Below are positions 1,442-5,601 of a stretch of 7,509 nucleotides of DNA, in pieces. The notes under the pieces were generated by a model that was not told the origin of the DNA, ran no database searches, and saw only the letters and a program-made list of their open reading frames with translations. The stretch's first letter is position 1, and each line of letters begins with the position of its first letter. Source of the DNA: Candidatus Zhuqueibacterota bacterium (GTDB lineage Bacteria > SM23-31); assembly GCA_022562855.1 (NCBI GenBank), contig JADFON010000079.1, positions 1 through 7,509 on the forward strand, given 5' to 3'. The translations under genes were made by a program, and so were the position numbers.

Positions 1442-1454
1442 AATATTGTCGAAC

Positions 1455-3257
1455 ATGATTAGAAAATCAAAAATTTATTTAATCTGTCAGTTATTTTTGT
1501 TTCTTGCAACTCCAATGGTTCTTTATTCGCAGGAGGCGGTAAAACGGATGGGAGCCGATCTGGAAGAGGGCAGGATCACGATGCACGATTACGCCGTGAA
1601 CCGCGGTTATGAATTGTTCGCTCCGGAAAGGCTCGACGCCCGGTACCGCGTGCCGGACGACCGGCATGATAAATGCGGGTTGGGAGTCATACATCTTTTA
1701 AGGACGGAATTCGATACTTTTACCACGGAAGAGCAGGATTTTTTCCGCCGTTTCGCATTCCGCCCATCGCTTCCGCAAAGCTATGTCAGTCCGGGGGGTT
1801 TTTTTAAGTTACATTATACAACTTCCGGTTCCAATTCAGTCTCTGTCGTGGATGATGACGGTAACGATATCCCCGATTTTGTCGATGAAGCTGCTCTCGC
1901 ATTCGATAACGTTCACCTTCTCTATACCGATACACTCGGTTACCAGGCGCCTCCAGCGGATGGAGTGGATGGTAATGAGTATGATGTATATATTGAAAAT
2001 CTTGGTTCGGGTACTTATGGATTGACTGCGCCCGAAGGACTGGGATTAAATACCCAATCGTATTTAATAATTGATAACGACTTTGCCGGTCAGGGATATT
2101 TTACAAATGGACTTGACGCTTTACGTGTTACCGTAGCGCATGAATACCATCATATGATTCAAATGGGATACATTTGGAGGTCGGGGGACAGGTTTTTTTA
2201 TGAAATGACCGCTACCTGGTTTGAAGACGTCGTTTACGATGACGTGAATGACTATTTTCAATATTTGCCTACGTTGTTTCAGGGGAGTGGATTTATTACC
2301 AACTCTACATCCAATTTTAGCTTGCCTTTTACAGACGTTGCGGACATGTACGGTAGATCGATCTGGATGCATTTTCTTGCGGCACAGTTCGGAGAAGTGA
2401 CTACGCACAACACGGTCCGGAGTATGTGGGAAAAAATGACTACCGACATTGCCATAAATGCAATTGAAAGCGCTGTTAACGAAGGCCTCCCTGTATCATT
2501 TGAAGAGGCATTTCACACGTTCAATACCTGGAATTATTTTACCGGGTCGCGAGCCGATACGGTGAATTATTATCCTGAGGGCAGGACCTACCCCGACCTC
2601 GTTTTTAACGAGACCCTGTTCAATGCCAACGATACAACATTCACCGTAACAAACAGGGAATTATCGACGCAATATATATCGGTTAACCGTCAACTTGCAA
2701 GTACATTTTCATTGTCTTTTGAGGCAGAATTGGACGATATTGATACGTGGAGAGTCTCAACGATACTCTCGGATAATTCCGGTCAGACTACGGTTAGCGG
2801 AGTTTCGTTTTTGAATGGCATTTCGGGAAGCTCTCTCGTGACAAGTTTTGGCAATAACCCTGAACTGGTGATCGTGGCGACCAATACAACAAAGTTTGGA
2901 AAACCGGGAAATTTCCCGTTAAGCGTTGATCTGAAAATGTTCGGTCCTGCAGAACTCAATGCCAATAAACTGCTCCCGACAATTCCAAGCCCTGCAAATT
3001 TCAGCGTAGTCAACCGGGTAAAAATTCCGTTTGTTATAGTCGATCCGTCGGACATTGAGATAAAAATTTACTCGATAAGCGGGGCATTGATAAAAAGCTT
3101 CCCTGAACGCACGTTCAGCGTTCCCGGTCTCTACGAAAACGAGTTTATATGGGACGGCAGGAATGATAACAACGAACGTGTTCCAAGCGGTATTTACATA
3201 TGTATTTTAAAAGGGGATAATTTTATCCATCGGGAAAAAATGGCGATAATAAGATAG
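1455..3257 (+). CDS. Exported HExxH metalloprotease with type IX secretion sorting domain
   Basis: Residue numbers count from the ATG at 1455; the upstream TTG at 1446 would add three residues. ATG was preferred because it opens directly onto a signal peptide: basic IRKSK, a hydrophobic core, likely cleavage near residue 25 (LYS|QE). No Shine-Dalgarno decides the matter. The zinc site is HEYHH (229-233), inside VTVAHEYHHMIQMGY. FYEMTATWFED follows, with E250 or E257 as candidate third ligand of a gluzincin-like site. Upstream, DDDGNDIPDFVD (133-144) resembles an EF-hand or thrombospondin-type Ca2+ loop. The middle is followed by a beta-rich domain (about 395-495). The C-terminal 90 or so residues hold IKIYSISG, an FIWDGRNDNNERVPSGIY stretch and a basic end, typical of FlgD-like/type A sorting domains recognised by type IX secretion. 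The architecture resembles the MXAN_6640-type putative metalloproteases. The substrate is unknown; the protein is probably surface-attached or released. Confidence 0.88.
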   Translation: MIRKSKIYLICQLFLFLATPMVLYSQEAVKRMGADLEEGRITMHDYAVNRGYELFAPERLDARYRVPDDRHDKCGLGVIHLLRTEFDTFTTEEQDFFRRFAFRPSLPQSYVSPGGFFKLHYTTSGSNSVSVVDDDGNDIPDFVDEAALAFDNVHLLYTDTLGYQAPPADGVDGNEYDVYIENLGSGTYGLTAPEGLGLNTQSYLIIDNDFAGQGYFTNGLDALRVTVAHEYHHMIQMGYIWRSGDRFFYEMTATWFEDVVYDDVNDYFQYLPTLFQGSGFITNSTSNFSLPFTDVADMYGRSIWMHFLAAQFGEVTTHNTVRSMWEKMTTDIAINAIESAVNEGLPVSFEEAFHTFNTWNYFTGSRADTVNYYPEGRTYPDLVFNETLFNANDTTFTVTNRELSTQYISVNRQLASTFSLSFEAELDDIDTWRVSTILSDNSGQTTVSGVSFLNGISGSSLVTSFGNNPELVIVATNTTKFGKPGNFPLSVDLKMFGPAELNANKLLPTIPSPANFSVVNRVKIPFVIVDPSDIEIKIYSISGALIKSFPERTFSVPGLYENEFIWDGRNDNNERVPSGIYICILKGDNFIHREKMAIIR

Positions 3258-3345: not shown

Positions 3346-5601
3346 ATGAAACCTGGAAAAAATATTTGTATCGTTATTGGTGCATTAATCCTTTCTGCCG
3401 CACTGTCCGGCTTGCCAACACGCGGAGCAGAAATTGTATTTGCTCAGACGCTCGACAGAAGCACAGAAAACCCGGCAGAAAGATTGGTAAAAGAGGGCGA
3501 TGCGGCGTACAGGATTGGAAAATATGCTGAAGCTCTCTCAATGTATAAGGATGCGGTTTCAGAGGACGCCTCTCTTTCAAATAAGCAGTCTCTTAATCTT
3601 CGAATGGCAATGTCTTTGTATTACCTGAAGGACTTTTCTTCGGCAATATCCCATTTTCAGAAGGCAAAAAACCTTCCCGTGAGGGACGGCTCACGCCGCG
3701 GTTCGGCGTTCCATGAATACATAGATTACTATACTGCAATGACCGAAATGCTTGCGGGTGATTATAGCGCAGCGGCAGCTTTATTTGCCGTCGTTCCTGA
3801 ACGATACCCGTCAAGTTTTGTAAAGAATGAAGCATCTTTCAAAGCCGGACGCCTTAACCATATCCTGGGAAATTATTCCGAATCGAACCGGTTGTTATCG
3901 CCGCTGGAAAATGTGAGAAATATTGAAGCAGGGCGCACCGCCACCCGGTATTACATTGCGATGAACTTTTTGAATACCGGCGATGAGGAAAACGGTATAT
4001 CGAGAATCTTAAATATATTAAATTCTTCTCCGTCCGACACGTTCGCGTTGAAATCGGCTGACAGGCTCTTCGGACTGAGAACTAATGCTGGCGGTGAAGG
4101 GGCGGTTCGTCCCGAAAGGGACCACTCACGTGGCGAACCGCCCCTACTATCCGAACAGGAAACAGTGCTTCTGGCTTCTGTTTATAACAGTCATGCAAAA
4201 GAAGACCGGGCGCATGAACTTCTTGACGGATATTTTGAAAGGTTTGCCGGGGGCGAATATACCGGCAGGGCTCATTTTGAACAGGGAAAGGTACACTATT
4301 CCCGCCGCCGTTACCGGGATGCAATTACAAGTTTTAACAAATCGTTTTCACAACTGAAAGATCCGGGACTCATTCGGGAATCACGTTTATATATCGCCCG
4401 AAGCTATAATAACAGCGGAGACAGGGCTGCTTCGGACAGGGAGTACGGCAGGTTCGCCCGTGAATATCCCTCCGACAGAAAAGCGGCGGAATCGCTTTGG
4501 TTGATCGCCCTTAACCTTGAACGGAGAGGCGAACTGTTGAAAGCGTCTGAGGAATACAGGAAAATTGCAGGGAAACCGGCGCCAAACGCTTACCGCGACA
4601 GGGCGCTATTCCGAACGGGTTTCACCTTGTATAAAAACGATTATCTAACGAGGTCGAGTGAGTATTTCAATGGTCTGAAAAAGCAGTTTTCGGGGACGGA
4701 ACTGGCAAATCAGGCTGCTTTCTGGGAGGCAAAAGCTCTTGAAAAACTCGGCAAAAGCCAGTCGTCGCAGGATGTATTTTCCAAACTGGCGCAAATCAGC
4801 AGGAGAAGTTATTATGCCGTTGCGGCAAGAGAAAAATCGGGACATACCGTTGATTTTGTGTCCGGTGAATCGTTAACGGTCCCGGTGATTCCGCAGGGAA
4901 TGACCGAAGCTGTGGAAATAGGGTTTATTTTTGGCGAACCATGGGGTTCGAGAGAACTTCGGCGGTTCAGACGCGGGGCGAATGTAACGAAGCAATCGCT
5001 CATTGAACTGTACCATGCCCTTGCAGAAATGGGAACCTATAAAGTGGCGGTTCAAACCGCCGACCTGTTATACAACAAGTTCTATTACGGTTCGAACAAC
5101 TTAGACGTCCTTCGCTGGCTCTATCCGAAACCCTATTCCGAACTGCTTGACGGTATCCCGGAAGCGTCACGGGTCGAGGAAAGCCTGATATTTGGTGTAA
5201 TGAGGCGTGAAAGCCTGTTCGAACTGAAAGCCGTATCTTCCGCCGGGGCATTGGGACTAATGCAGTTAATGCCTTCTACAGCCGCGAGCCTTGCCAGGTC
5301 GATCGGGCTTCAGGATTTTTCGGTGAGCGAAGTGTTTATGCCCGCTGTCAATATGCATCTTGGCATTAGAAATATCCATGATTTAATGCAAAGATTCCGG
5401 CGTAATGTGCCTTTGGTTCTCGCTGCATACAATGCCGGGGATTCGGCGGTTCGTAGATGGGTCGACCGCTACGGCACGGACGATATGGACGAATTTATCG
5501 AAAATATTGAATACTCGGAAACGCGTACGTTTGTTAAAGAAGTATTGAAAAATTACTATTTTTACGAACGGTTGTATCCGGATGAATCTAACATGAATTG
5601 A
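3346..5601 (+). CDS. Periplasmic TPR-containing soluble lytic murein transglycosylase (Slt-type, GH23)
   Basis: This 751-residue enzyme would cleave the MurNAc-GlcNAc bond of peptidoglycan to give 1,6-anhydro-MurNAc ends during wall turnover. The N-terminus is a signal peptide with hydrophobic core 7-23 and probable cleavage after A33 (VFA|Q); no lipobox is seen, so it should be soluble. Residues about 44-490 are helical TPR-like repeats (for example GDAAYRIGKYAEALSMY at 51-67 and GKVHYSRRRYRDAITSF at 314-330), giving a superhelix as in Slt70. The catalytic domain (about 610-745) has VMRRES with catalytic Glu622, SSAGALGLMQLMP (631-643), AAYNAG (693-698) and IEYSETR (721-727), all GH23 signatures. 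It is longer than E. coli Slt70 (about 645 residues). Residues 251-268 are encoded by an inserted palindromic repeat. The 88-nt gap upstream has GATTTTTG at 3312-3319, one mismatch from a TAnnTTTG box, but no clear partner element or Shine-Dalgarno. Confidence 0.94.
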   Translation: MKPGKNICIVIGALILSAALSGLPTRGAEIVFAQTLDRSTENPAERLVKEGDAAYRIGKYAEALSMYKDAVSEDASLSNKQSLNLRMAMSLYYLKDFSSAISHFQKAKNLPVRDGSRRGSAFHEYIDYYTAMTEMLAGDYSAAAALFAVVPERYPSSFVKNEASFKAGRLNHILGNYSESNRLLSPLENVRNIEAGRTATRYYIAMNFLNTGDEENGISRILNILNSSPSDTFALKSADRLFGLRTNAGGEGAVRPERDHSRGEPPLLSEQETVLLASVYNSHAKEDRAHELLDGYFERFAGGEYTGRAHFEQGKVHYSRRRYRDAITSFNKSFSQLKDPGLIRESRLYIARSYNNSGDRAASDREYGRFAREYPSDRKAAESLWLIALNLERRGELLKASEEYRKIAGKPAPNAYRDRALFRTGFTLYKNDYLTRSSEYFNGLKKQFSGTELANQAAFWEAKALEKLGKSQSSQDVFSKLAQISRRSYYAVAAREKSGHTVDFVSGESLTVPVIPQGMTEAVEIGFIFGEPWGSRELRRFRRGANVTKQSLIELYHALAEMGTYKVAVQTADLLYNKFYYGSNNLDVLRWLYPKPYSELLDGIPEASRVEESLIFGVMRRESLFELKAVSSAGALGLMQLMPSTAASLARSIGLQDFSVSEVFMPAVNMHLGIRNIHDLMQRFRRNVPLVLAAYNAGDSAVRRWVDRYGTDDMDEFIENIEYSETRTFVKEVLKNYYFYERLYPDESNMN
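4098..4145. repeat. In-frame palindromic repeat element inside the transglycosylase gene
   Basis: A perfect 12-bp inverted repeat, AGGGGCGGTTCG (4098-4109) and CGAACCGCCCCT (4134-4145), encloses 24 nt. These split exactly into two further hairpins: TCCC-GAAA-GGGA (4110-4121, a GNRA-type loop) and CCAC-TCAC-GTGG (4122-4133). The result is a three-way junction with no unpaired junction bases. Its 48 bp equal 16 codons, so the frame is kept, and it encodes the Pro/Arg/Glu-rich segment at about residues 251-268 between TPR-like helices. The right arm continues as CCCCTAC, like the GTAGGGGCG...CGCCCCTAC palindromes dispersed in many bacterial genomes, from memory. It is most likely a short non-autonomous mobile repeat that inserted in frame. 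Confidence 0.75.

Follow-up and report, generated by a model that had tools for sequence, protein, structure and literature searches.

The lytic transglycosylase gene (slt) of this Candidatus Zhuqueibacterota genome contains, in frame, a 48-bp stretch that is probably a nest of two non-autonomous REP-like mini-elements, an outer palindrome (A) and an inner double hairpin (B), moved by a REP-associated transposase. The evidence comprises an insertion of exact length, its multicopy parts, their nesting, empty sites, covariation and two transposase genes, one of which has the same nested architecture beside it. Throughout, the window denotes the whole stretch of DNA that we analysed, 7,509 nt of contig JADFON010000079.1. 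The assembly is metagenomic and incomplete (79.6% complete, 2.5% contamination, 491 contigs); ∼28% of the genome was read directly, with a bias toward contigs carrying B.

The 48 bp fold as a perfect three-way junction (−33.3 kcal/mol, z −5.25), and none of 200 dinucleotide shuffles was equally stable. This agrees with the original prediction, which had described a gapless junction with a 12-bp outer stem, two 4-bp hairpins (loops GAAA and TCAC) and no spacer, 16 codons long and in frame within the SLT-domain gene. When 698 kb of the genome was scanned with a strict criterion (arm ≥7 bp, zero unpaired bases), the slt junction was the sole example and shuffled sequence gave none; a relaxed scan returned 12 junctions compared with 2–5 in shuffles. 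The same prediction had treated the stretch as a single element, which did not hold: it consists of a 24-bp palindrome and a separate 24-bp double hairpin, and the two parts are found independently of each other. The inner 24 bp (TCCCGAAAGGGA joined to CCACTCACGTGG) are inserted precisely at the dyad of A (Table 1). The consensus 14-nt half-palindrome of A, GTAGGGGCGGTTCG, extends past the junction, with the right arm complete to 4147 and the left arm matching at 13 of 14 positions from 4096. Judged by this consensus, the element as such may span 4096–4147, though comparison with relatives gives a net insertion of 48 bp. The window copy of A has kept CTAC at 4144–4147, and its left end reads GAAG. 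B within A occurs once in the window, so that A or B may have come first, or both may have arrived jointly.

Table 1. The slt gene and its insertions, in window positions
Feature	Position	Strand	Evidence
Host gene: TPR-containing lytic transglycosylase with SLT domain, 751 aa	3346–5601	+	ORF; PF01464 (E 9e-27) and TPR matches
Second, non-nested B, TCCCGTGAGGGA joined to CGGCTCACGCCG, 8 codons	3675–3698	+	Double-hairpin scan; model match of 39.1 bits; 8 residues absent in ortholog
Composite insertion, 48 bp = 16 codons net (possible full element 4096–4147)	4098–4145	+	Fold; 16 residues absent from orthologs
Left arm of outer palindrome A, AGGGGCGGTTCG	4098–4109	+	Bare copies GTARGGGCGGTTCG^CGAACCGCCCYTAC elsewhere
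Inner element B, 24-bp double hairpin (12+12; each with 4-bp stem and 4-nt loop), at the exact dyad of A	4110–4133	+	B family pattern and covariance-model matches
B hairpin 1, TCCC-GAAA-GGGA	4110–4121	+	Fold
B hairpin 2, CCAC-TCAC-GTGG	4122–4133	+	Fold; ACCACTCACGTGGC pattern counts
Right arm of palindrome A including the CTAC end, CGAACCGCCCCTAC	4134–4147	+	Sequence; comparison with bare copies

By comparison with orthologous sequences, the 48 bp in slt are a genuine insertion. Slt homologs in three relatives are without the 16 residues at the composite site. The best of these, a protein of genome G002 with 45% identity, is encoded in a syntenic position, a biotin-carboxylase-like gene coming next in both genomes. 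In a global alignment, this ortholog has only two internal gaps between window residues 42 and 510, one of 8 residues at 110 and one of 16 at 243, exactly at the two structure-defined elements. Removing 3675–3698 and 4098–4145 within the script rendered the alignment gapless over residues 42–510 and raised its score from 1526 to 1556. The orthologs are as expected for the proposed in-frame insertion, and the result that would have refuted the original prediction by its own account, an element with no further copies in the genome and orthologs with a homologous segment of the same length, was not encountered. The copy of B at 3675–3698, independent of the composite, had been missed in the original prediction. 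A search with Slt across the genome contigs revealed a single distant relative. The AlphaFold model of the TPR part of Slt is poor (mean pLDDT 50) and gives a weak indication that both inserts may lie between predicted helices. Elsewhere in the window, a gene for a 23S rRNA-intervening-sequence protein (PF05635, E 5e-20; 1044–1406) is neighboured by an EngA/Der-type GTPase gene and a putative metalloprotease gene. The latter (1446–3257) would encode an HExxH enzyme of the MXAN_6640 family (NF045524), the C-terminus of which has a weak type IX secretion-like match.

Empty sites were likewise found for B outside slt. In glmS (contig C387, gene L277:2759–4618), B lies on the strand opposite to the gene, directly after CTTG, and the GlmS proteins of G001 and G002 (both 72% identical), G003 and E. 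coli (4amv) are all without the 8 residues at this site; in the alignment of the flanking DNA the gap measures 24 bp, and its ends show no duplication. A further pair comes from within the genome itself, where the TGTCATTG repeat is empty in L278 (GGCTCAATTTGTCATTG^CGAGCGAAGCGTGGCAATCTC) and filled in L275, with identical flanks. Since relatives are few and distant, the empty sites rest on proteins of 45–72% identity and on this one same-genome pair.

B belongs to a family with a consensus of two 12-nt hairpins, TCCC-GNNA-GGGA and NNNC-TYAC-GNNN. Its pattern occurs at 36 places in its own genome within 2 mismatches, compared with 1 for a reversed control, and that of the second hairpin (ACCACTCACGTGGC) at 24 places within 1 mismatch, again compared with 1 for the control. 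A covariance model of B (E ≤ 0.01, the E-values being rough) matched 37 times in the own genome and 1, 1 and seven times zero in nine other genomes; as the model was built from own-genome copies, high member scores are expected, and it is the difference between genomes that carries information. The strict B pattern had no copies in the 240 other genomes among the 241 searched, nor in viral contigs. Together with the copies of A described below, this answers the question of further copies in the source genome: the parts of the slt composite are multicopy. Additional copies of B are present in a TolC-like ORF (in the signal-peptide region), in a lipoprotein-like ORF and just upstream of pth, and a degenerate one in a hydantoinase-like ORF, where the gap in the alignment to a PDB sequence is ∼10 residues, not exactly 8. 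With respect to the host gene, intragenic copies occur on either strand, and stop codons are missing from most frames of B. A candidate in an mraY-like ORF (L203, GCCCTCGAGGGACCCC...) was judged a chance match.

Second hairpins of the B copies show compensation in three of the four base pairs (TA/CG, GC/CG, GC/AU). Covariation, which the original prediction had proposed looking for, amounted to 0.224, compared with ≤0.081 for slid structures and with 0 of 500 shuffles reaching it; because the B sequences are related, this is support, not proof. Such data, along with the very stable fold and the conserved loops of B, could also be expected of a functional structured RNA, either a cis-regulator or a processing site, recruited in the slt mRNA. 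The covariation fits DNA hairpins equally well, however, and the Rfam search yielded no match in the window at the gathering threshold, only a tRNA in a flanking locus. Copies of B are furthermore distributed over unrelated genes and intergenic mosaics, and their presence on both strands leads us to reject a structured RNA as very improbable. The inner double hairpin thus represents the separate family B, and the structured RNA suggested in the original prediction is not supported.

As for the sites of B, about 11 copies sit within repeats of the type TGTCATTG^B^CGAG..., where they may have been amplified as a composite and hence are not independent insertions. Among the 25 sites outside the TGTCATTG repeats, seven have TTG immediately 5′ of B (P ∼3e-7 given a genome TTG frequency of 0.019, an optimistic value because the test was chosen after inspection of the sites). 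For IS200/IS605-type elements, entry 3′ of a fixed short target without its duplication would be expected; the glmS copy is a net insertion of exactly 24 bp that follows CTTG and shows no duplication. TTG is not universal at B sites, its place being taken by ACCT at the 3675 copy and by TTCG at the nested window copy. In L280 (10865–10909), the loop of the second B hairpin is split by 21 bp, composed of a 17-bp hairpin, CCCCTATCATTTCGGGG, and a repeated CTTG; this is a further level of nesting and possibly an insert with a 4-bp duplication. Mosaics of CCACTCACGTGG hairpins were seen near contig ends (L038–L043; C390, C325, C293, C175 and C131), so that the assembly is probably interrupted at these repeats and the copy numbers are minimum values.

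Palindrome A has a different distribution. Its bare form (GTARGGGCGGTTCG^CGAACCGCCCYTAC), without inner hairpins, is present on contigs C54, C68 and C254 of the own genome, which holds only a handful of copies. Three unrelated genomes have 94, 52 (G142) and 9 copies, and G001, from the same family, has one; every listed copy outside the own genome is bare. Bare A is a perfect, loopless 28-bp palindrome with GTAG...CTAC ends. It shares with the GTAG REP superfamily the GTAG at one end and the high copy number (94 and 52 in other genomes), but not the unpaired tag and the short loop of 2–3 nt seen in most families, as its tag is included in the pairing. The exact palindrome pattern GTAGGGGCGNNT..CGCCCCTAC gave no match in the own genome because the window copy is without the left GTAG and the own bare copies have one arm mismatch, and a plasmid search gave weak partial matches only. 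Half copies of A in L155 (C54, ∼4135–4175) and L156 (C68, ∼7830–7940) are both preceded by TGTGA and have whole bare copies close by; they are possibly deletion derivatives of nested copies. On two contigs of the viral collection (L131, 4963–5002; L132, 5473–5512), A surrounds 18 bp of a different kind, which in L132 form a hairpin themselves.

These distributions also bear on whether the composite could be a true Rickettsia palindromic element (RPE), horizontally acquired. In-frame palindromes inside unrelated protein genes, here twice in slt and once in glmS, are how RPEs behave, and the TGTCATTG host repeat resembles the CGTC REP class, which has been equated with RPE-4/RPE-6 of R. conorii (PMC3733652). 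Yet B was found in its own genome alone among the 241 (strict pattern), and the outer arm belongs with GTAG rather than CGTC elements, which makes such an origin slightly less probable still than a structured RNA.

The original prediction had also proposed that the element may be a substrate of a REP-associated-type transposase. Three Y1 domains are encoded in the genome, and the genes on contigs C119 and C347 exceed the cut-off of NCBIfam NF047646 (REP-associated tyrosine transposase, RAYT); such enzymes are thus encoded here, and the link of the two to A and B is one of association. On one flank of the C119 gene is a bare palindrome, GTCAGGACTT^CAGTCCTTGAC (also given as GTCAGGACTTCAGTCCTTGAC); on the other, the GTCAGGACTT palindrome carries a 24-bp double hairpin, CCCCGAAGGGG joined to CGGCTTTCTGCCG, at its centre. 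C68 holds a second nested copy, in which the stems of the outer and inner hairpins alike are compensated; the six copies of this palindrome in G001 are all bare. The inner hairpins flanking the C119 gene are B-like, with a weak match to the B model (14.8 bits, E 0.38). What adjoins this RAYT is a B-like double hairpin in a different palindrome, and no clear copy of A or B was seen beside a RAYT. The C347 gene (L263, 2629–3165) is flanked by GGGGTCGTCCCTGACC...CGCCAC pieces similar to those beside many CCACTCACGTGG hairpin copies.

The transposases might instead be bystanders, with the hairpins spreading without a dedicated enzyme, whether by replication-dependent template switching, by slippage or by conversion at single-stranded palindromes. 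A is abundant (52 copies) in G142, a genome in which no Y1 domain was detected; nesting at palindrome centres is compatible with polymerase switching at hairpin tips, and extended mosaics of partial hairpins were observed. However, the precise 24-bp length and constant ends of the units at sites as unrelated as glmS and slt, together with the TTG preference, look recombinase-like, and a REP-type transposase gene has the nested architecture at its flank. We therefore consider spread without a transposase unlikely, albeit a more serious contender than the alternatives above.

In the reading that we favour, transposase-driven nesting, A, with GTAG/CTAC ends, and B would have come together in slt, B exactly at the dyad of A, and the second B would have entered separately, upstream of the composite. 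B would insert as a 24-bp unit whose ends are the feet of the hairpins, without visible target duplication; it would favour sites preceded by TTG and would often enter other hairpin repeats. The likely mover of both A and B would be a REP-associated HUH/Y1 tyrosine transposase acting in trans on single-stranded hairpins, and the fate of the insertions in proteins would be near neutral. As 24 bp equal 8 codons and most B frames are stop-free, genic insertions add ∼8 residues, which should be survivable where the protein tolerates a loop. It is conceivable, if rather doubtful, that B is among the smallest mobile DNA units known, a 24-bp, codon-multiple double minihairpin that preferentially enters the tips of other hairpin repeats, lets repeats grow by recursive nesting and, time and again, extends functional proteins by loops of 8 residues.

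Rickettsia and some REP-rich genomes are known to carry palindromes inserted in frame. With two insertions of the same family, exact empty sites, a codon-multiple length and REP-type transposases in the same genome, the case of slt lends itself to direct tests of the mover, the target rule and the cost to the protein, and the B insertions show a simple route for adding short peptide loops to essential enzymes such as GlmS.

A literature search for the repeat sequences returned nothing relevant. GTAG and CGTC REPs have been described, some lying in frame within genes of several species, R. conorii among them, and some situated within other palindromes (Di Nocera et al. 2013, PMC3733652), so that the parallel to RPEs drawn in the original prediction is apt. 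Like GTAG REPs, A is palindromic with GTAG/CTAC ends, dispersed, sometimes genic and in frame, and sometimes associated with other palindromes; it differs in that bare A is loopless with GTAG on both ends, and in that the window copy has lost its left tag and holds a foreign double hairpin. With CGTC REPs and RPE-4/RPE-6, B shares in-frame insertion in unrelated protein genes, and the TGTCATTG...GCAAT host repeats look like a TGTC variant, whereas B itself is a tagless, lineage-specific 24-bp double hairpin. Bacteroidetes-type REP transposases of subclass 2.6 are flanked by 'atypical secondary structures' (Quentin et al. 2018, PMC6006769). The C119 system resembles these REPtrons in its Y1 transposase with DHIH...WQ...YIHNNP motifs, by which motifs the subclass was judged, and in its unusual flanking palindromes copied elsewhere in the genome, but has a bare palindrome on one flank and a three-way junction with a 24-bp double hairpin on the other. 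Mitochondrial double-hairpin or repetitive hairpin-forming elements (PMC2800124) likewise consist of small hairpins in tandem, enter genes with the frame preserved and nest or form clusters; they are organellar and of other sequences than B, with no evidence of common descent. Against this background, three features appear novel: the 24-bp double hairpin forms a lineage-specific family of its own, it has repeatedly entered other hairpin repeats, at the dyad or within them, and it is inserted twice in one gene.
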